Below are positions 538 to 14,392 of a stretch of 20,829 nt of DNA, piece after piece. A program made the translations under genes and the position numbers. Source of the stretch: a virus; the IMG/VR virus record IMGVR_UViG_3300006947_000114, positions 1-20,829 of that record; one strand, 5' to 3'. The notes under the pieces were generated by a model, which saw nothing but the letters and a program-made list of their open reading frames with translations, made no database searches and had not been told where the DNA came from. Numbering within the stretch: the stretch's first letter is position 1; each line of letters starts with the position of its first letter.

Positions 538-1416
538 ATGGCAATTTATCAATCGTACCAAGTTGTGGGAGCAGCAGAGGACGTTTCTGACGTTTTAAGC
601 ATGATCTCTCCAACCGCTACACCTTTCCAAAGCCTAGTCAAAAGCGAGAAGATTCACGCTCGTACATTTGAATGGCTTGAAGATTCACTACGAGCTTCTG
701 CTCAAACTGCATTGGTTGAAGGGGCTGACGCTTCTGCAATCACTATCTCTCCTGCTGTATCACGCTCTAACACCACTCAGATCATCGGTGAAGCCTTTCA
801 AGTATCAGCTACTTCTGATGCTATTAAGACTTATGGCGCTGCAAAGCAGACGGCTCTACAACTATCTAAGACCCTTAAGGCTCTTAAGAATGACGTAGAA
901 AAGTGCTTCGTAGGTGTTGACCAAGCTGCTGTTGCAGGCAGTGCTTCTGTTGCTCGTAAGATGGCTTCTGTATCTTCACAGATCAGCACCACTTTAGACG
1001 CAGGCGCTAATGCAACTGATGCTCTAACTGAAGCAAAACTCTTGACTCTAAGTGAGACTTGCTACAACAACGGTTCTGAGCCTTCAGTACTAATGGTTAA
1101 GCCTGCTGATGCGTCTATCATTGCAGGATTCGCTACAGCTACAGGCCGCCAACGTGACATCGACCGTACTATCACAAACACGATAGACGTACTCGTAACT
1201 CCGTTCAACGAAGTAAAAGTCGTAATCAACCGCAGTAACTTAAGTACTCATGCGTTCTTGATTGATCCGTCTACCTTTAAGCAAGCTGTATTGCGTCCAT
1301 TTACACGCACTCTACTTGCCAAGCAAGGCGATTCTGACAAGCACTTTGTTGTCGGTGAAGTATCGGTAAAACACTCTAACTTTGGTGACTCAGGAATGAT
1401 CATCGGTCTTTCTTAA
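538..1416 (+). CDS. Major capsid protein, SU10/DUF5309-like HK97-fold
   Basis: This 292-residue protein forms the icosahedral head shell. It starts with ATG 538 after a weak GGA-type ribosome site. The N-terminal part (YQSYQVVGAAEDVSDVLSMI then SPTATPFQSLV) and the ALVEGADASA and QIIGEAFQVSATSDAIKTYG segments match what I know of the DUF5309/SU10 major head protein family. This is not the T7 gp10 type of capsid sequence, although the replication genes in the window are T7-like. Position supports the call: it follows a probable scaffold gene and precedes a head-tail adaptor. A strong compound terminator lies 30 nt after the stop, just as terminator Tphi follows gene 10 in T7, which would give this gene the most abundant transcript of the region. 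Family assignment is from memory of sequence features. Confidence 0.88.
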   Translation: MAIYQSYQVVGAAEDVSDVLSMISPTATPFQSLVKSEKIHARTFEWLEDSLRASAQTALVEGADASAITISPAVSRSNTTQIIGEAFQVSATSDAIKTYGAAKQTALQLSKTLKALKNDVEKCFVGVDQAAVAGSASVARKMASVSSQISTTLDAGANATDALTEAKLLTLSETCYNNGSEPSVLMVKPADASIIAGFATATGRQRDIDRTITNTIDVLVTPFNEVKVVINRSNLSTHAFLIDPSTFKQAVLRPFTRTLLAKQGDSDKHFVVGEVSVKHSNFGDSGMIIGLS

Positions 1417-1844: not shown

Positions 1845-2447
1845 ATGAACCTTGGAAGTATTAGAACCCATTTTAAAGCCTTATTAAACCGAAGTGATGT
1901 CACAGACTCACTCGCTACTACTTTCATTGACCAGGGTATCACTAGGATTCAAAGATCACTCAGAGTCCCTTCAATGGAAAAGAAGCATACTTATACCTTT
2001 AGTGCTGAAGCAAGCCAAGTGTCTCTACCTACAGACTTCCTAGAAGCTATCGATGTCTACTACGATCATACGGCTCTCACTAGACTCCCTATGTCAGAGA
2101 TGGCTGCTCGTAAGGAAGGTAACGAGACAGGTATACCCTCGTATTTCACTAGAGAGCAGGGCGCACTACTACTGTACCCACACCCTTCCTCTGGTAGCTT
2201 AACTCTGAATTACTACGCTACGTTTACTGACATGGTGAGTGACTCCGATGAAAGCATCCTTGCACAGATAGCCTCCGACTTAATCATCTACTCAGCGTTA
2301 ACCTATGCGGCTGACTATTACCTAGATGAGCGTTCTCCAGTGTTCTCAAACAAGTACTTAGAGTTTATGAATGAGCTTCAAGAGCAAGCTAATGACGCTG
2401 AGACAAGTGGCTCTCTACAGAGCATTCGTCCTTCCTATACATACTAA
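1845..2447 (+). CDS. Head-tail adaptor protein, SU10-adaptor-like
   Basis: This 200-residue protein probably forms the ring between the portal and the tail, the role that gp11 has in T7. It begins with the typical adaptor pattern, a short helix-rich start (LGSIRTHFKALLNRSD) followed by a helix with FIDQGITRIQRSLRVPSME and then the phrase VSLPTDFLEAIDVYYD. The central GALLLYPHPSSGSLTLNYYA and the C-terminal helical region with LTYAADYYL complete the pattern I recall for the phage adaptor (SU10-type) family. It sits 3 nt after the small preceding gene and just before the tail fibre gene, consistent with a connector/tail role. Portal, nozzle and internal core genes are not adjacent here. Family assignment is from memory. 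Confidence 0.72.
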   Translation: MNLGSIRTHFKALLNRSDVTDSLATTFIDQGITRIQRSLRVPSMEKKHTYTFSAEASQVSLPTDFLEAIDVYYDHTALTRLPMSEMAARKEGNETGIPSYFTREQGALLLYPHPSSGSLTLNYYATFTDMVSDSDESILAQIASDLIIYSALTYAADYYLDERSPVFSNKYLEFMNELQEQANDAETSGSLQSIRPSYTY

Positions 2448-2472
2448 GAACAAACTGAGGTTGTAGATAACA

Positions 2473-5400
2473 ATGAGTAAATCTTCCTTTTACGCTGAGA
2501 GTGGTGCGTCACCTACGGCCACCAATGCCATAGAAAATTCAGTTAGTGGAGCAGCAGCTTCAGCAGCAGCCAGTGCAGCCTCTGCCACAGCAGCAGCTTC
2601 TAGTGCAACCACAGCCAGTGCAGACATTGCGGCTAACACAGCCTCTGCTGCTGCAAGTGAAGCATCCAAAGTTACATCTGTAGCAGCTAAAGTTGCCGCA
2701 GTAGCAGCCCAAGGATACGCAGAGACTGCTGAGACTAACGCTGAGACTGCTGAAGCAGCAGCCCTAGTTAGCCAGAATGCTGCCTCTGCTAGTGCAACCG
2801 CAAGTGAAGCCTCTAAAGTAACCAGTGTCTCTAGTGGCACTACAGCGACAACCAAAGCCTCTGAAGCAGCCTCTTCAGCTACTAACGCATCCTCAAGTGC
2901 TTCACTGGCAGCTTCTAGTGCCACAGCAGCAGCTTCGAGTGCTACCGCAGCAGCCAGTGAGCTAGTAGCGTCTGCTCTTAAAGCTAACAACCTCTCTGAC
3001 TTAGCGAGTGCAACAACTGCCAGGACAAACCTAGGGTTAGGCACAGCGGCTACTACAGCCTCTACTGCTTATGCTACGGCTGCTCAAGGTACTAAGGTTG
3101 ACGGTATAGAGACAAGTGCTACAGCCGACCAGACTGCTGCTGAGATAAGAGCCTTAGTTGAATCTGCTACTGACTCTACTGTATTCACAGATGCTGACCA
3201 CTCAAAGCTAGATGCTATAGAAGCGAGTGCTACAGCAGATCAAACTGCTGCACAGCTACTGACTGCTATCAAGACAGTCGATGGTACAACCTCTGGTTTA
3301 GACTCAGACTTACTCGATGGACAGGAAGGTACTTATTACACAGGCTACACTGATACTGCTGTAGCAGCACTTGTAGATTCATCTCCTGCTACTCTTAATA
3401 CCTTGAATGAACTAGCGGCTGCTCTGGGTGATGACCCAAACTTTGCTACTACTACAGCTACCTCTATAGGTAACAGAGCAGAACTAGCAGGCGCGGCTTT
3501 CACTGGAGCAATCACCACTACCTCAACCTTTGATGGGCGCGATGTTGCTACTGATGGCACTAAGTTAGATACCATAGAAACCTCCGCAGATGTAACCGAT
3601 GCTACCAATGTCACAGCGGCAGGGGCATTAATGCTCTCTGGCGGCACGGTGACAGGCACTTTAACACTGTCCTCAACGTACCCGCGATTAAACTTTACGG
3701 ATACTGATAGCAACTCTGACTTTTCAATTATTAATGCTAATGGGCTTTTGTCAGTCTATGACGTAACAAATGCTGCAAACAGATTTACTATAGCCTCAGA
3801 TGGCACGTCTACATTCGCAGGAGAAATCACAGCCAACGGCGGTATAGCTCTGGGTGACAGTGATGTAGCTACTTTTGGTGCTAGTGATGATCTCAAGATT
3901 CACCACAATGGTTCTAATAGCTATATTCAAGATTCAGGTACTGGTGATTTAATTATAGCAGGAACAAACCTCTCCCTGCGTAATTATGCTACTGACGAGA
4001 TATTCTTGGATGGTACTTCTAATGCGGCTGTTAGGGTTTTCTACAACGGAGCCGCCAAACTAGCCACCACCGCCACAGGCATAGATGTCACTGGTACTGT
4101 GGTAGCTGATGGTTTGACTGTTGGCGCAAGCGCACCGCCAACTTGGGGTACATATCAAGCGGTTGCAACTGTTGGTGATTCAACAATTGTAAATTACCAA
4201 ACATCAAACAGACAAGACTTAGAATTAGTTTCAAATGCTTATTACAATGCAGGATGGAAATTAATTAAAGCATGGGATGCTTCAAGGTATACACAAATTG
4301 ATGGCGCTCATTCGTTGCAGATAGCGGCAAGTGGTGTGGCAGATTCAGCCATTACTTGGAAAGACGCATTAAATATAGACAACAACGGCGACATATCCTT
4401 CTACGAAGATACAGGTACAACGGCTAAGTTCTTCTGGGATGCTAGTCTTGAAAGATTGGGATTAGGCACTGCAAGCCCCCAAACAGATTTACATGTCAAA
4501 GGTGGTTCTGACATGGGTATTAGGATCGAATCAGCTAATGATGGATACGCCAGCTTACAGTTTGGAGATGCAGACGATACTGTTCGCGGGGCTATTACTT
4601 ATAATAATGCAGACGATACTTTACAGTTGAGAGGCTATAACAATACAACTCGCATGACTATAGATAGCTCTGGTAACGTAGGTATAGGCGGCACCCCGTA
4701 TACCAAGGTGGATATAAGAGGCACAAGTGCAACTTCTAGTGCCACCCTCCAAATTGTTGGCACTGGGGTTTCTGGTTTATTATTAGGGCAAGATGCTGAC
4801 GGTGGCGTGATTCGTGGGCAAGGGGGAAACAATGCTCTAAAGTTCTACACTGGTGGTGTAGGAGATAACGCGGCCAGTGCGTCTGGTACGGAACGTATGC
4901 GCATCAATTCAGCGGGTGCAGTTTCCATAGGAACCACGGCCACTAACGGTAAAGTCAGCATCCAAGGTAGTGGTAGTTATAACTCTAGCAACTGGGGCAT
5001 ACCCTCAGACCTGACAATTCGCTCTAGTGAGATGAGTGATACTGCTTATCATTCCATTCTTCAATTAGTATCTATTAGGCAATCACTGGGAACAGGTAAC
5101 ACGGCTAATGGATTCTTAGGGTTTTCAACTATTGATGACTCCAACGGTCAAGGAATTAATGATGCTTGTCGTATTGCAGTAGTCAATGAAGTGGGTAGCT
5201 CAAGAAACTCCGCGACTGCTTTAAGTTTCTGGACAAACGCGGGTGGAACCGCTACCACAGCCCCAACTGAGAAGATGAGGCTCGATAGTAACGGAACCCT
5301 ACTACTAAGCACTCCCGCAAACGGAGCATACGGCTACCTAAACATCAAAGAAGCGGGTGGTGGTGATGTTCGCTTTGGTAAAGGCGCGGGTAATAACTAT

Positions 5401-6396
5401 GATGCCATATTGGGTACTTGGTCAAATAATGATATTGTATTTTATGCTAACTCAGTAGAAAAAATGCGAGTTAAGGCATCAGGTAATGTAGGCATAGGTA
5501 CAACAAGCCCAGACACACAACTACACATTCAAAACCCAAGTACTAGTTGGGGGCAGTACTCAACAATAAGGCTAGGGAGTGACATAGAGGGTACAAACTA
5601 CGCTGACTTAAAGTATTACAGGGGTGCTAGTTCAGCATCTGAGGCCTTCAAGCTTAACGTAGCAGGAACCGATGCTTTAACAGTATTGAAGAGCGGCAAT
5701 GTTGGAGTAGGTACAACAACCCCAGACGCCCCTCTTTCAATTTATGCCCCTAGTGTAACTACAGTAGGCTCTGGATTAGGAGGACTAAGAGTACATAGAC
5801 CGGGCTCAGAGGGCCAGTTTGGTTACTTTGAATACGGCTATGGGTCAGGCACTACCTATATTGGATCATCTTATACTGGAGGCAGTGCGGCCACCTATGG
5901 CAATATCCAGTTTAGACAGCATAGCAATGGTGGCACCCCTATAAACTCGCTCTTACTAGATGGTGCGGGCCGCGTGACCATGCCTTATCAGCCTGCTTTC
6001 AGAGCGGCGGGGAATAACTCTTGGCAAGCCCTGACTAGCAACGTACAAGCGCCCTTTAACGTCGCAGTGGTCAATACAGGTGGTCACTACAGTGCCGCTA
6101 ATAAAAGATTTACTGCCCCAGTTGCAGGAAACTATTACTTTGCTTGGCACACCTACAATGACCATACGCATAATAACGCAATAGTCCCTAGGGTTAATGG
6201 TACTGGACTATCAGGCGGCGGTGGCGATGCCATAGTTGCGTACCAGTCTAATTCCGTGACAGGCAATTTAACAATCAGCGCATCAGTTGTGCTTGCACTT
6301 TCGGCCAACGACTATGTAGATATAGCAAGCCGAAGCAATCATACATCTAATATATATATGCCTCACTCACAATTCTCAGGCTACTTAATAGGATAA
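2473..6396 (+). CDS. Tail fibre / receptor-binding protein with C-terminal C1q-like domain
   Basis: This 1307-residue protein is the likely host-recognition fibre. Residues about 20-175 are an Ala/Ser/Thr-rich, probably coiled-coil stretch. A fibre-type linker (SDLASATTARTNLGLG) follows near residue 180, then paired TSATADQTAAE/ASATADQTAAQ repeats. From about residue 660 to 1080 there are six degenerate repeats of the SGNVGIGTTSP kind (near 662, 734, 814, 937, 1003 and 1074), most preceded by a KMR/RMR-like strand; these usually form trimeric beta structure. The last part, about 1172-1307, carries the C1q/TNF-like pattern: N-TGG-YSAANKRFTAPVAGNYYFAW, and an FSGYLIG ending. No S74-type chaperone and no T7 gp17 N-terminal attachment domain is visible. 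The ribosome site (GAGG at 2456-2459) is weak and far from the ATG. Confidence 0.87.
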   Translation: MSKSSFYAESGASPTATNAIENSVSGAAASAAASAASATAAASSATTASADIAANTASAAASEASKVTSVAAKVAAVAAQGYAETAETNAETAEAAALVSQNAASASATASEASKVTSVSSGTTATTKASEAASSATNASSSASLAASSATAAASSATAAASELVASALKANNLSDLASATTARTNLGLGTAATTASTAYATAAQGTKVDGIETSATADQTAAEIRALVESATDSTVFTDADHSKLDAIEASATADQTAAQLLTAIKTVDGTTSGLDSDLLDGQEGTYYTGYTDTAVAALVDSSPATLNTLNELAAALGDDPNFATTTATSIGNRAELAGAAFTGAITTTSTFDGRDVATDGTKLDTIETSADVTDATNVTAAGALMLSGGTVTGTLTLSSTYPRLNFTDTDSNSDFSIINANGLLSVYDVTNAANRFTIASDGTSTFAGEITANGGIALGDSDVATFGASDDLKIHHNGSNSYIQDSGTGDLIIAGTNLSLRNYATDEIFLDGTSNAAVRVFYNGAAKLATTATGIDVTGTVVADGLTVGASAPPTWGTYQAVATVGDSTIVNYQTSNRQDLELVSNAYYNAGWKLIKAWDASRYTQIDGAHSLQIAASGVADSAITWKDALNIDNNGDISFYEDTGTTAKFFWDASLERLGLGTASPQTDLHVKGGSDMGIRIESANDGYASLQFGDADDTVRGAITYNNADDTLQLRGYNNTTRMTIDSSGNVGIGGTPYTKVDIRGTSATSSATLQIVGTGVSGLLLGQDADGGVIRGQGGNNALKFYTGGVGDNAASASGTERMRINSAGAVSIGTTATNGKVSIQGSGSYNSSNWGIPSDLTIRSSEMSDTAYHSILQLVSIRQSLGTGNTANGFLGFSTIDDSNGQGINDACRIAVVNEVGSSRNSATALSFWTNAGGTATTAPTEKMRLDSNGTLLLSTPANGAYGYLNIKEAGGGDVRFGKGAGNNYDAILGTWSNNDIVFYANSVEKMRVKASGNVGIGTTSPDTQLHIQNPSTSWGQYSTIRLGSDIEGTNYADLKYYRGASSASEAFKLNVAGTDALTVLKSGNVGVGTTTPDAPLSIYAPSVTTVGSGLGGLRVHRPGSEGQFGYFEYGYGSGTTYIGSSYTGGSAATYGNIQFRQHSNGGTPINSLLLDGAGRVTMPYQPAFRAAGNNSWQALTSNVQAPFNVAVVNTGGHYSAANKRFTAPVAGNYYFAWHTYNDHTHNNAIVPRVNGTGLSGGGGDAIVAYQSNSVTGNLTISASVVLALSANDYVDIASRSNHTSNIYMPHSQFSGYLIG

Positions 6397-10019: not shown

Positions 10020-10022
10020 ATT

Positions 10023-10040
10023 ATTAATGGTGACCTTTAG
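10023..10040 (+). promoter_or_regulatory. Phage RNA polymerase promoter candidate 1 (before attP/int)
   Basis: ATTAATGGTGACCTTTAG is the first of three near-identical copies (others at 11446 and 14375), identical except at one base. It lies 4 nt after the last late gene and points into the attachment region and integrase. It resembles the SP6 promoter (ATTTAGGTGACACTATAG) in the GGTGAC block and the closing AG, so initiation near G10040 is inferred. The sequence is far too long and too conserved to recur by chance in gaps only. Confidence 0.78.
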
Positions 10041-10051
10041 CACCAAACCAG

Positions 10052-10080
10052 TAGACAGCCATAAAACCTTTGTGTATCCT
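10052..10080 (+). promoter_or_regulatory. Possible host sigma-70 promoter upstream of the tRNA-Leu half
   Basis: TAGACA (10052-10057, five of six consensus bases) is followed after 17 nt by TATCCT (10075-10080, four of six), then a GC-containing discriminator (TTGCGG). Transcription would start near 10087, about 39 nt before the first base of the tRNA half at 10126. A phage promoter in this place could express the tRNA gene rebuilt after integration. Such matches occur by chance, so the call is tentative. Confidence 0.35.
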
Positions 10081-10251
10081 TTGCGGCATCGGAGTCACAC
10101 TCCAGTGTAAATCCTTGAATTCCCTGCCCGGGTGGCGAAATTGGTAGACGCAACGGACTTAAAATAGAAATTCCTAGCGAAAACAAGGACTTAGAGAGCG
10201 CAAAGGACATATTCCTGAGTAGCTCCCCCCAATCAAAACCAGTGTGACTCC
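10075..10251. repeat. Two nested inverted repeats flanking attP (possible integrase arm sites)
   Basis: Pair one: GGAGTCACACT (10091-10101) and its exact reverse complement AGTGTGACTCC (10241-10251). Pair two: TATCCTTTGCG (10075-10085) and CGCAAAGGACA (10199-10209), complementary at 10 of 11 positions. Both pairs enclose the tRNA-like core at 10126-10165. In addition GGACTTA occurs in the core end (10155-10161) and again at 10187-10193. Arm-type integrase sites commonly lie on both sides of the core as short repeats, so these are candidates. The 11/11 pair might instead fold in RNA. Confidence 0.5.
10126..10165 (+). other. attP: attP core: 5' half of a tRNA-Leu(UAA) gene
   Basis: The 40 nt read as the 5' part of tRNA-Leu: acceptor strand GCCCGGG, TG at positions 8-9, a D arm (GCG/CGC) with GG in the loop, anticodon-stem strand ACGGA, and a loop with the TAA anticodon. 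The resemblance stops one base into the 3' anticodon strand; the following AGAAATTCC cannot close the stem or make a T arm. By eye, 33 of 40 bases match the E. coli tRNA-Leu(UAA) I remember. It lies 116 bp upstream of a tyrosine integrase, the standard place for attP. T7-like cyanophage P-SSP7 and some pelagiphages are known to carry such tRNA segments. Confidence 0.85.
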
Positions 10252-10271
10252 TTAAACTTAAGTGTTAAAGG
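10250..10271 (+). promoter_or_regulatory. Hairpin covering the integrase ribosome binding site
   Basis: CCTTAAAC (10250-10257) pairs with GTTAAAGG (10264-10271) with one A-A mismatch, across the loop TTAAGT. The 3' arm includes most of the AAAGGAG ribosome site (10267-10273) that sits 7 nt before ATG 10281. The fold could limit integrase translation. The stem is short and AT-rich, so its stability is doubtful. Confidence 0.35.
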
Positions 10272-10280
10272 AGATACATC

Positions 10281-11240
10281 ATGTCGTACAACCCCGAAAA
10301 ACAACTAGAGTTATACATTAGCAATACAGAAGTACATAGCCACACCCCCATCGACTTCGACAACAGTTACACCATAGAGAAAATACCTTCACTACTTCAG
10401 TTCACCCAAGCTCACTATAAGAGAATCTGGGATACTGACAGCCACAGAAAAGAATCACTAGCGAAAATAGTTCGGCTATCAGAATTTGCCGACAATGAGT
10501 TTCGCCCAATCACCCAGTACCGCCCCTCGTACATCTACGACTTCCTAGAACATAGGCGAGAAGACTTCGGTAACAAAGAAGGAACACTCAACAGATACAT
10601 AGCTTGTCTCAGTAAAATCTTTAGGTTCTATGAAGATGAGTATAACGTCCAGATAGCCCCAAGGTTACGCTATAGACGCGATCCTAACAGTAGAGGCAGA
10701 CCTAGAGTCTTCTCCAAAGTTGAACAGAGTCAGATTCTAGAGATGCTATCAACCAGTGAGTACCCTTGGGCTGCACACATGGTTACCTTCGCTTTAAAGT
10801 CTGGTATGCGTAAGGGTGAGATCTTAGGTATCGGTAAGACAGCCGCTGAAGTCAAGAGAGATGAAGTCTACGGTCGCATCATGTCTGAGGGTGGCCTCCA
10901 TAAGATACACCTATACAGTACTAAGAATGGTGATGAACGCATAGTTCCCCTACAGCCCGCCGCATGGGCGGCTCTACAGGCTCTAAAGGAGCGTCCCTCT
11001 ACAGACTTTGATCACCACCAGTTCTACAGGGTGTGGGACAGGGTGCGTAGGAGGTTAGCCCCCAACGATGAACACTTTGTATTCCATGTCTGTAGGCATA
11101 CAGCCGCAACTGAACTTGCTCTCAAAGGTTTCAACATGAAGCAGATAGGTGACTTCTTAGGTCACAAAGCAATCGTAACTACAGCTAAGTACATTAAGAG
11201 TACTGAAGAAAGTACCCATGAAATGGCTATGGCTTTGTAG
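10281..11240 (+). CDS. int: Tyrosine recombinase (phage integrase)
   Basis: This 319-residue protein inserts and possibly excises the phage at the tRNA-Leu site. A good ribosome site (AAAGGAG) precedes ATG 10281. The N-terminal part (about 30-145) looks like a SAM-like core-binding domain with an arm-binding start. The catalytic domain has all expected residues: Arg177 in SGMRKGEI, Lys215 in the STKNGDER beta-hairpin, His269 and Arg272 in HVCRHTAATELAL, His295 in FLGHKA and the nucleophile Tyr304 in TAKYIK. The length is usual for the family. attP lies directly upstream, and a phage-type promoter lies farther upstream. In a prophage the gene would be cut off from those promoters and placed behind the host tRNA promoter. 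No excisionase gene was recognised. Confidence 0.93.
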   Translation: MSYNPEKQLELYISNTEVHSHTPIDFDNSYTIEKIPSLLQFTQAHYKRIWDTDSHRKESLAKIVRLSEFADNEFRPITQYRPSYIYDFLEHRREDFGNKEGTLNRYIACLSKIFRFYEDEYNVQIAPRLRYRRDPNSRGRPRVFSKVEQSQILEMLSTSEYPWAAHMVTFALKSGMRKGEILGIGKTAAEVKRDEVYGRIMSEGGLHKIHLYSTKNGDERIVPLQPAAWAALQALKERPSTDFDHHQFYRVWDRVRRRLAPNDEHFVFHVCRHTAATELALKGFNMKQIGDFLGHKAIVTTAKYIKSTEESTHEMAMAL

Positions 11241-11442: not shown

Positions 11443-11445
11443 TTT

Positions 11446-11463
11446 ATTAATGGTGACCTTAAG
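11446..11463 (+). promoter_or_regulatory. Phage RNA polymerase promoter candidate 2 (before the RNA polymerase gene)
   Basis: ATTAATGGTGACCTTAAG, the second copy of the motif, differs from copies 1 and 3 only at the base before AG. The closing G is 38 nt before the RNA polymerase ATG. If used, the polymerase would drive its own gene (positive feedback). In T7 the polymerase gene is read mainly by the host enzyme. Confidence 0.78.
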
Positions 11464-11500: not shown

Positions 11501-14116
11501 ATGACAGATTTAACTACTCACGCAAGAGACCTACATTTAGAAGAGTTGCAACGTGAAGATCAAATGCGCCAAGGAGGCATCCAAAGATACAACAACCGTC
11601 AAGCCAAACAGAAACAGCTATCTAAAAGTAACACCCACCATAGTTTTATAACTAATGCTCTAACCAAAGTATCAGAGGGTATAACCCAATACATAGACCT
11701 AGAGTTAGCCAAAGGAAGAGGTAAGCCCTATCGTTGGGTTGAGACACTTAAAGACCTTGACCCAGATAAACTAGCTTACATTGGTCTTAACACATTCATG
11801 GATGCAGTAGGTCAAAGCTCAAGTCTAACTGCTTGTACCGCTAAGATAGCCAAGAGGGTAGAGTTAGAGGCTTGGAGTCGTGACCTCAAGAGATACAACT
11901 CTAAGTTACACCGGAAAGCCGAACAGTTAGCCACCAAAGGACACCAGACAGACCGTAAGAGAATAGCCGCAGTAAAGAGTATGGTTTCAAACCACTCAGC
12001 AAAATCCAAAGTTAAATTCACACCACAGAACCTAGATGTAGCCATAAAAGCCTTTGCAGAACCTGTAGTTAACGCTGTACTAGAGTTCTCTGATATCTTT
12101 GAGGTCTATACTGAGTTCATGGCTAATCGCACTAAGAAGATGATTGGGCTTACTCCAGAGGCATCGGCTGAAATCGTTAGACAGGACATCCAGGCATCTT
12201 GGAGGCAACCCATGTTTGCCCCTATGATTACACCCCCAGTACCTTGGACTAGCCTACTGGATGGTGGCTACGCAAGTGAAGAGCTATCACACTTAGTTCC
12301 CCTAGTGAGAGGCTCTTGCTATGAGCAGAGTGGACACATAAAGCATGACTTTGCTAAAGCAGCTACTGAAGGTGAAGTTCCTGCTTATGTTGAAGCCTTG
12401 AATGCACTACAGGCTGTCCCATTGAAGATCAATACGGCTGTCCTAGAGTTAGTACAACACTGTTGGGATTCAGGAGAGTCCTTCAAGAAGTTTCCACTAC
12501 AGTATCAAATGGATCTACCAGAGAGTCCTACTACAGAGGCTTGGGAAGCTCTGACTGTATTCGAGAAGAATCTACTCAGGATGGAACGTACCAAGATCAT
12601 GAAGAAGAACCGTGAGATCACTGGTCGTTCTTGCATGATGGAACAAGACTTAAGTACTGCTACAGAACTTGCTTCAGAAGACCAGTTCTACTTAGTGTGG
12701 AATATGTGCTTCAGAGGTAGGTTTTATCCTGTGTCGAACTTTAGCTACCACAGAGATGACCACATTAAAGCCTTAACACTACTCAAGAATGGTTCTCTGG
12801 TTACTTCAGATAACTGTGAGTGGTCGGCTATCCATTTAGCTAACTGTGGAGACTTTAATAAGATCAGTAAGCAAGACTTGTCTGATAGAGTTCTTTGGGT
12901 AGAGTTCAATGAACCCATGATCAGATCCATAGTAAAAGACCCTGTAGCTAACCTAGAGTTAATCCAGTCAGCCGACAAACCCTTTCAGTTCTATGCAGCC
13001 TGTGTTGATTGGGTTGGCTACCTAGAGTCAACTGGAGACTACATAAGCTGTCTACCTCCGGCACTAGATGGTAGTAACTCAGGAGTACAACACTACAGTG
13101 CATTATCTCTGAATGAAGTCGATGGTGCTTTAGTTAACTTAGTACCTAGTGACATACCTCAAGATGTATACCAAACAGTGGCTGATAGAGTGAATACGAA
13201 GCTACAAAGGATAGCCCTAGCAAGCACTGTAGAAGCCAACCTAAAGCCTCGTAGAGATGCCGATGGTAACGTGAAGATGCCTGTAGAAGAGGTGCGTAAG
13301 GAGCGTAAGGAGGGCGCTAGGCTATGGCTAGATCATGGTGTCACCCGATCCACTGTAAAAAGAAACACAATGACTTACCCATACTCAAGTAACCAATACG
13401 GTTTTGCTGACCAGGTAACTGAAGACCTAATGAAACCTTTAGCTGACAGAGAGTTAGTTTACAAAGAAGTACACCCCTTTGGCACAGTAGATCAACAGTT
13501 TCATGCTACTAGACTCTTTGCTGAGATTAGCTATGAGAGTGTACAAGAGGTTATCTCTAGTGCAGCCCAAGGCATGAAGTTCTTACAGAGTGTCTCTATA
13601 GCGTTATCAAAAGAGAATAAGCCGACACACTGGAGAAGTCCTGTAGGTTTCCCTGCTGTACAGAAGTACACCAAATGGAAGACTAAGAAGGTACGGCTGT
13701 ATCTCTACGATAGAGAAGCCAAAGTAAAGACTAGAGCGCAGATGTCTGTACGCAGAGAAGATAAGTTCAAGATAGACACCGCTAAGTCTAAGGCAGGCAT
13801 TGCGGCTAACTTCGTACACTCTCTGGACTCAGCGCACCTAGCGAACACAGTGCTATCTCTAGTAGACAATGGCATTACTGACTTCATGGTGATCCACGAT
13901 AGTTTTGCTGTAGGTGTAGAGGACACTTGGACTCTATTTGATACTGTCAGAGCTACTTTCGTAGACCAGTACCAAGACACTTGCCTCTATACAGAACTAA
14001 AGAGTACTGCTGAACAGAATTTGGCTGAACCAGATTTAGCTAAGTTTGAACCTATACCTGTGAAAGGTAATTTAGATATGACGGAAGTAATGGCTTCGGA
14101 TTATTGCTTTGCTTGA
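11501..14116 (+). CDS. T7-type single-subunit DNA-directed RNA polymerase
   Basis: This 871-residue enzyme (T7: 883) would transcribe the phage genes from phage promoters without host subunits. Motif A is LDGSNSGVQHYSAL with catalytic Asp523. Motif B is GVTRSTVKRNTMTYPYS followed by SNQYGF, with Lys620 and Tyr628 in the place of T7 Lys631 and Tyr639. Motif C is IHDSFAV with catalytic Asp800. The C-terminus ends in the FA pair typical of the family. The residue after Tyr628 is Ser where T7 has Gly (AYGS against PYSS). The ribosome site is AAGGGG before ATG 11501. A copy of the putative phage promoter lies just upstream, so autogenous activation is likely. A long hairpin follows the stop codon. 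Confidence 0.95.
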   Translation: MTDLTTHARDLHLEELQREDQMRQGGIQRYNNRQAKQKQLSKSNTHHSFITNALTKVSEGITQYIDLELAKGRGKPYRWVETLKDLDPDKLAYIGLNTFMDAVGQSSSLTACTAKIAKRVELEAWSRDLKRYNSKLHRKAEQLATKGHQTDRKRIAAVKSMVSNHSAKSKVKFTPQNLDVAIKAFAEPVVNAVLEFSDIFEVYTEFMANRTKKMIGLTPEASAEIVRQDIQASWRQPMFAPMITPPVPWTSLLDGGYASEELSHLVPLVRGSCYEQSGHIKHDFAKAATEGEVPAYVEALNALQAVPLKINTAVLELVQHCWDSGESFKKFPLQYQMDLPESPTTEAWEALTVFEKNLLRMERTKIMKKNREITGRSCMMEQDLSTATELASEDQFYLVWNMCFRGRFYPVSNFSYHRDDHIKALTLLKNGSLVTSDNCEWSAIHLANCGDFNKISKQDLSDRVLWVEFNEPMIRSIVKDPVANLELIQSADKPFQFYAACVDWVGYLESTGDYISCLPPALDGSNSGVQHYSALSLNEVDGALVNLVPSDIPQDVYQTVADRVNTKLQRIALASTVEANLKPRRDADGNVKMPVEEVRKERKEGARLWLDHGVTRSTVKRNTMTYPYSSNQYGFADQVTEDLMKPLADRELVYKEVHPFGTVDQQFHATRLFAEISYESVQEVISSAAQGMKFLQSVSIALSKENKPTHWRSPVGFPAVQKYTKWKTKKVRLYLYDREAKVKTRAQMSVRREDKFKIDTAKSKAGIAANFVHSLDSAHLANTVLSLVDNGITDFMVIHDSFAVGVEDTWTLFDTVRATFVDQYQDTCLYTELKSTAEQNLAEPDLAKFEPIPVKGNLDMTEVMASDYCFA

Positions 14117-14205: not shown

Positions 14206-14374
14206 CCAACAACTGATGATTCTATTCCCCTCGATACCTCAAAGTCTATAGCCAGCCCAATGCTAAACGTAGTCTTTTTAGACTATCTGGTCATAAAGTT
14301 ATAGCCAACAGCACCAACAGTACGAACCCCCTAGTAAAACCCCGCCAGAAGCAGCTCTAAGCACCTTTATATCG
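14206..14374 (+). other. Non-coding stretch with a short direct repeat and a small hairpin
   Basis: No credible gene is seen here. AAAGTCTATAGCCA (14241-14254) recurs with a one-base deletion as AAAGTTATAGCCA (14295-14307). Between the copies TAGTCT-TTTT-AGACTA (14270-14285) can form a 6-bp hairpin. The stretch ends at phage promoter 3. It could carry the mRNA end of the RNA polymerase unit. Confidence 0.4.
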
Positions 14375-14392
14375 ATTAATGGTGACCTTCAG
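14375..14392 (+). promoter_or_regulatory. Phage RNA polymerase promoter candidate 3 (before the SSB/replication operon)
   Basis: ATTAATGGTGACCTTCAG is the third copy of the motif. Its closing G is 27 nt before ATG 14419. It would start the SSB and endonuclease I unit, which ends at the terminator at 15539-15568. Confidence 0.78.

Follow-up and report, generated by a model that had tools for sequence, protein, structure and literature searches.

Why would a T7-like phage carry, right beside a tyrosine integrase gene (int), what looks like the beginning of a host tRNA gene? The window analyzed here, that is, the whole IMG/VR record IMGVR_UViG_3300006947_000114 of 20,829 bases, probably a phage genome fragment, contains 40 such bases (GCCCGGGTGGCGAAATTGGTAGACGCAACGGACTTAAAAT; coordinates in Table 1), spanning the 5' strand of the acceptor stem to the first base after the anticodon loop. 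The original prediction, i.e., that these bases are the 5' half of a tRNA-Leu(UAA) gene ending one base past the loop, was confirmed base for base. Based on the sequence comparisons reported here, the 40 bases are very probably the core of a phage attachment site (attP), used by a T7-like phage that integrates in the tRNA-Leu(UAA) gene of a SAR92/Porticoccaceae-type gammaproteobacterium.

Table 1. Features of the attachment region of the window, its polymerase gene and repeats, and the prophage ends of a related element.
Feature	Position	Strand	Basis or remark
Probable attP core, first 40 bases of tRNA-Leu(UAA)	10126..10165	+	Exact genome matches; same place in relatives
Sigma-70-like promoter, TAGACA - 17 bp - TATCCT	10052..10080	+	Directed through the half tRNA toward int
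Putative arm 1, left copy, TATCCTTTGCG	10075..10085		Overlaps the -10 box; distance kept in relatives
Putative arm 1, right copy, GCGCAAAGGA	10198..10207		Inverted repeat of TATCCTTTGCG
Putative arm 2, left copy, GGAGTCACACT	10091..10101		11/11 complementary to 10241-10251
Putative arm 2, right copy, AGTGTGACTCC	10241..10251		Just upstream of the int ribosome-binding site
Putative arm 3, left copy, TAAATCCTTG	10108..10117		Adjoins the core
Putative arm 3, right copy, CAAGGACTTA	10184..10193		Inverted repeat of TAAATCCTTG
Tyrosine integrase, 319 aa	10281..11240	+	Pfam PF00589, E 3.6e-18
Single-subunit T7-like RNA polymerase	11501..14116	+	Alignment to autographivirid RNA polymerases
Phage RNA polymerase promoter-like repeat, TTAATGGTGACCTT	10021-10040 (+), 11444-11463, 14373-14392		Repeat search
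L088-like prophage ends in G116	L078 (G116:C29) 10150-10290; L167 (G116:C23) 1295-1320		Shared core

A search of the core against bacterial tRNA genes found it to be identical to the 5' ends of tRNA-Leu(UAA) genes in 34 genome contigs, so the predicted host counterpart does exist, and ARAGORN called a tRNA-Leu(taa) at the matching genome loci wherever tested. The identical stretch runs from base 1 of the mature tRNA to the T that follows the anticodon loop; the flanking bases differ, with the host genes reading CCGTC or CCGTT after the core and the window reading AGAAA. The 3' half of the tRNA is absent from the window, and ARAGORN found no tRNA gene in it. Judged from the sequence, an exact match of 40 bases cannot be due to chance. 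The window also has the combination by which a tRNA-targeting attP is recognized, namely an exact, phage-borne tRNA fragment adjoining a tyrosine integrase gene. The latter, placed next to the half tRNA by the original prediction as well, begins 115 bases farther downstream, is read in the same direction, and encodes a protein with conserved residues R177, K215, R272, H295, and Y304.

The genes recognized in the window encode a major head protein, a virion structural protein, a tail fibre, an endolysin, the tyrosine integrase, a T7-like RNA polymerase, a gp2.5-like SSB, a primase-helicase, and a DNA polymerase (the head protein, SSB, primase-helicase, and DNA polymerase were assigned via PHROGs). 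This gene content bears out the earlier view of a T7-like phage, and the single-subunit RNA polymerase and T7-type replication genes lie on one strand, as in Autographiviridae-type phages. The RNA polymerase shares ~30% identity with the best named autographivirid RNA polymerases over 99% of its length, and the integrase 23-30% with those of T7-like pelagiphages, cyanophages, and others (one short match apart); therefore, the window phage is a divergent T7-like phage. T7-type tail tube B and internal virion proteins were not recognized within the window. A structural gene (1845-2447) is directly followed by that of the 1307-aa tail fibre (region 1845-6396). The three copies of TTAATGGTGACCTT are probably promoters for the phage's own RNA polymerase, and one copy lies ~90 bases upstream of the half tRNA.

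Relatives were found among viral contigs with a three-integrase alignment plus the core pattern; searches of viral contigs with int alone or the RNA polymerase alone gave no matches, and a looser motif-plus-core pattern added nothing to the known group except unrelated tRNA-Leu genes, or fragments lacking the genes of the window. The group has a common gene order (a small phrog_2524 gene, attP, int, RNA polymerase, SSB, endonuclease, primase-helicase, polymerase, exonuclease), and the relatives show a conserved array of sigma-70-like promoter, inverted arms, half tRNA, inverted arms, int, and phage RNA polymerase. The integrase tree pairs the window with L120 and groups both, with full support, with L081, L083, L084, L119, and L125; every member of this clade has the 5'-half tRNA upstream of int and in the same orientation. 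Although the integrases of the relatives that share the array are only 50-63% identical, the 40 bases are the same in L120, L083, L084, and L125, while L119 and L081/L082 carry a core variant with another anticodon-stem base, as found in other Porticoccaceae, and L109/L118 carry ~70 bases of the tRNA. Further, L114, L116, L124, L126, and L130-L132 carry the whole tRNA-Leu(UAA) gene in this place, but on the other strand; in these phages, and also in L111 and L088, the gene includes CCA and lies on the opposite strand with the phrog_2524 gene on one side and int on the other, and several of these full-tRNA sister phages have a host-like leader before the tRNA. Another T7-like phage, L123 (7396-11133), has a tRNA-Leu 5' half in reversed orientation between int and the RNA polymerase.

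Three inverted-repeat pairs at fixed spacing flank the core and represent putative arm-type integrase sites. Inverted repeats within single members are often only marginally beyond those of shuffled sequences; hence, the case for the arms rests on their repeated position. The left copy of arm 1 starts at -50/-51 from the core and the right copy at +34/35 in most members (the left copy has one mismatch in L109/L118). In L119 and L125, both copies have moved outward by ~19-20 bases on each side (left copy at -69/-70), a joint shift that would fit protein-binding sites holding their helical phase. Arm 3 is longer in L119, L125, L083, L081, and L084. The right copy of arm 1 is similar to the core's anticodon-stem half-site and is, in most relatives, an extra copy of that half-site, bearing the core's own variant base in 8/10 members (C with C, G with G; the exceptions are the window and L125, both with A). 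Since the members are related rather than independent events, this agreement is suggestive and does not amount to a formal test.

Upstream of the core, the window, L120, and L081 have TAGACA exactly 17 bases before TATCCT, and the -35 hexamer of other members is TTGAAA, TTGTAA, TTTACA, or TTGGCT; that is, a promoter hexamer is found at exactly 17 bp in nine of the ten members, L119 being the exception. With a spacing of 17, the mean match to TTGACA is 4.5/6; for all other spacings between 8 and 30, it does not exceed 2.5, and none of 20000 shuffles reached the family mean for promoter match, although the window's own score is modest (single-site p ~0.03). As for previously described phages, the half tRNA of P-SSP7 is preceded by a good sigma-70-like promoter (TTGTTA-16-TATAAT), and the promoter score of the pelagiphage half tRNA is no better than chance.

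In the mechanism that we propose, the integrase would bind the inverted arms on both sides of the core and exchange strands within the 7-bp anticodon loop, and the phage 5' half, joined to the host 3' half, would restore tRNA-Leu. With a 5' half supplied by the phage, the host's original 5' half and its promoter would be displaced to the far end of the prophage. When the junctions were constructed in silico with the exchange in the anticodon loop, the phage left flank and core joined to the 3' half of each of six hosts gave a tRNA-Leu called by ARAGORN; that is, attR gives a tRNA-Leu(UAA) and attL none. In the same junctions, the 5' flank of the rebuilt gene is the phage arm with the promoter-like element, and int lies behind the host tRNA leader. 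Accepting the promoter, the left arm of free phage DNA would be read through the half tRNA into int, and after integration the same promoter would read the rebuilt tRNA-Leu, with int presumably coming under the host tRNA promoter. It is intriguing to hypothesize that attP is a portable promoter switch, with one phage promoter driving first int and then, once the phage has integrated, the host's essential tRNA-Leu(UAA), int and the early region passing to the host tRNA promoter, and that 5'-half attPs of T7-like phages generally need such a promoter. We regard this hypothesis as tentative, with the chances tilted slightly against it; if true, integration would take int from its own promoter and tie its expression in the prophage to host growth.

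Which host is involved is answered in part by the core itself. The original prediction held that the exact bases would identify the host; they narrow the host range but do not fix it, since several gammaproteobacterial families match. Specifically, the 34 exact-match contigs belong to Porticoccaceae/SAR92 (including HTCC2207, H231, and H921) and also to Alcanivoracaceae, Arenicella, Sulfurimicrobium, a Solemya symbiont, and others, and a single anticodon-stem change (AAGGGA for AACGGA) is all that distinguishes the 40 bases of many other Porticoccaceae. It follows from these matches that an attP for tRNA-Leu(UAA) might serve a host outside Porticoccaceae (Alcanivorax or Arenicella, for example), an alternative that concerns the host only and that we consider unlikely. 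In tetranucleotide usage, eight Porticoccaceae contigs rank first among the exact-match genomes, with HTCC2207 at the top, whereas the correlation with Alcanivorax is low; this comparison carries limited weight because the host loci are at most 8 kb long. Further, the relatives are tied to Porticoccaceae by a prophage in genome G116 and a locus in genome G109 (both described below), and the full-tRNA group has host-like leaders of the type CTTCAGTAT. Hence, while the 40 bases alone do not decide, composition and relatives favor a SAR92/Porticoccaceae host.

Alternatively, the half tRNA might be a leftover of imprecise excision or capture that no longer serves as attP, the phage being lytic or integrating elsewhere. 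The relative most pertinent to this alternative is L088, a viral contig of 37.4 kb with a 33% identical integrase, whose int and upstream DNA match Porticoccaceae genome G116 without a difference for 995 bp and there adjoin rpiA. A second G116 contig carries 289 identical bases of the other side of L088, abutting the end of a gene that, on inspection by eye, we take to be DUF2333-like. Both ends share GGGAATCACTACCCC, with a core of 15-17 bp located 100 bp upstream of int, and rpiA and the DUF2333-like gene are neighbors in most relatives checked; the shared sequence at both ends and the neighboring host genes therefore identify the L088-like element in G116 as a prophage. No base-for-base match to its empty attB was found in relatives, where the site was matched by gene order only. 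Since L088 has a complete tRNA-Leu(UAA) yet integrates between rpiA and the DUF2333-like gene, a tRNA-Leu piece near int is, by itself, no proof of the integration site, and we set aside the complete tRNA-Leu of the sister group as an attP core given where these junctions map. (The L088-like prophage carries the only tRNA-Leu(UAA) found by pattern in the G116 assembly.)

The search for lysogens is also compatible with a leftover. Among 112 Porticoccaceae genomes, no lysogen of the window phage or its close kin was found in tRNA-Leu, one suggestive but ambiguous locus (G109) apart, and among the 51 readable Porticoccaceae genomes with a core match, none except G109 had a phage left arm before tRNA-Leu. 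In G109, a 37% identical integrase and a complete attP-type array lie right after tRNA-Cys, where relatives have tRNA-Leu; phage arms are present on both sides, and the assembly holds no tRNA 3' half. We rejected this locus as a clean attL because its left side has a phage arm too and the spacer matches other loci only in tRNA-Cys; it may have been left behind by serial integration in tRNA-Leu, or it may be misassembled. After the integrase and array comes a giant gene that encodes a flagellin C-terminal domain (L077 7600-13264; G109:C37). In T7-like cyanophages, the same equipment gives integration without stable lysogeny (PMC8776855).

Several lines of evidence make a leftover quite improbable, however. 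Five phages have kept the 40 bases intact while their integrases diverged to 50-63% identity, the core variants follow the variants of real hosts, the arm distances are kept, and the right-arm half-site mostly follows the core. L088 itself, as a prophage, offers the strongest indirect evidence that the site is used: its real core sits apart from its tRNA, beside inverted arms and at the very place (100 bp upstream of int) that the half tRNA itself occupies in the window. Integration in a host tRNA-Leu gene, as the original prediction read the locus, is thus supported, with 34 exact matches on the host side and no lysogen of its own clade found. Finally, it is hardly credible that the half tRNA acts as an RNA, i.e., as a tRNA-like 5' fragment of the int transcript (e.g., a decoy or regulator), since, even though the promoter-like element reads into the half tRNA and int and would place the fragment in an RNA, such a role would not need arms at fixed spacing, half-site copies, an end exactly at the anticodon loop, or a match to particular hosts, and no tRNA 3' half follows the fragment in the window's clade.

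Reading the half tRNA as an attP core also agrees with known systems. In P-SSP7 and S-TIP37, the first half of tRNA-Leu (39-42 bp) is a working attP with proven integration (PMC8776855). Deletion of attP from S-TIP37 abolished integration and had no other effect. The window phage resembles these Autographiviridae in its T7-like gene set, its tyrosine integrase next to the phage RNA polymerase, and its tRNA-Leu 5'-half core, but their attP lies downstream of int, between int and the RNA polymerase (PMC8776855), whereas that of the window and its relatives lies upstream; also, their integrases are ~22-29% identical to the window's and their hosts are cyanobacteria. The T7-like pelagiphages HTVC105P and MedDCM-OCT-S35-C6, among the nearest named integrase relatives (27-30% identity), likewise have a tRNA-Leu(UAA) 5' half beside int (PMC3861242), but with attP downstream of int, a MarR-type gene preceding int (none was recognized in the window), and SAR11 hosts. 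That P-SSP7-like cyanophages and pelagiphages carry such elements, as noted at the outset, is therefore correct, and the window shares their 5'-half core and lacks their placement of attP directly downstream of int and before the RNA polymerase. Pseudomonas phage LUZ100 is also T7-like and has an integrase with tRNA-Leu beside it (PMC10134795), although its tRNA-Leu is complete and on the opposite strand, as in L114/L126/L130 and L088.

Comparison with more distant elements is also instructive. As in the tRNA-dependent lysogeny of mycobacteriophages (PMC10865867), the phage must compensate for a disrupted essential tRNA gene; however, the core there is ~10 bp and accompanied by a whole phage tRNA, whereas the window, with no tRNA gene within its 20.8 kb, brings half a gene in a 40-base core from which the tRNA would be rebuilt. 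Such rebuilding is standard for tRNA-integrating elements, and 5' fragments are the rarer kind: Islander lists 3760 islands with a displaced 3' fragment vs. 159 with a 5' fragment (159/3919; PMC4383910). The window shares with the 3'-half attPs a tyrosine integrase and a core in a tRNA gene rebuilt on integration, but a 5'-half attP must also replace the promoter. The half tRNA of the window suggests that T7-like phages favor the rare 5' side of tRNA genes, for which the putative promoter carried on the attP arm offers a testable reason.

While 5'-half tRNA-Leu attPs were known before in T7-like cyanophages and pelagiphages, what is new is the phage group and its probable host, together with an attP that precedes int and has a conserved promoter and arms. 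Our literature search found no such phage for SAR92/Porticoccaceae, which are marine bacteria. Attachment through the tRNA-Leu 5' half is thereby extended from phages of cyanobacteria and SAR11 to a divergent group with no named phage above ~30% identity, and the exact junction sequences and host list are now at hand for finding lysogens. The gap between tRNA-Cys and tRNA-Leu in SAR92 genomes (L005, L010, L022, L023) varies from ~0.2 to 2.4 kb, possibly reflecting relics of insertions 5' of tRNA-Leu. In addition, SAR92 genome H921 (L171; G003:C7:296000-315000) contains a more distant T7-like prophage, with an integrase, RNA polymerase, SSB, primase-helicase, and ribonucleotide reductase-like gene, located beside tRNA-Arg(UCU) and tRNA-His.
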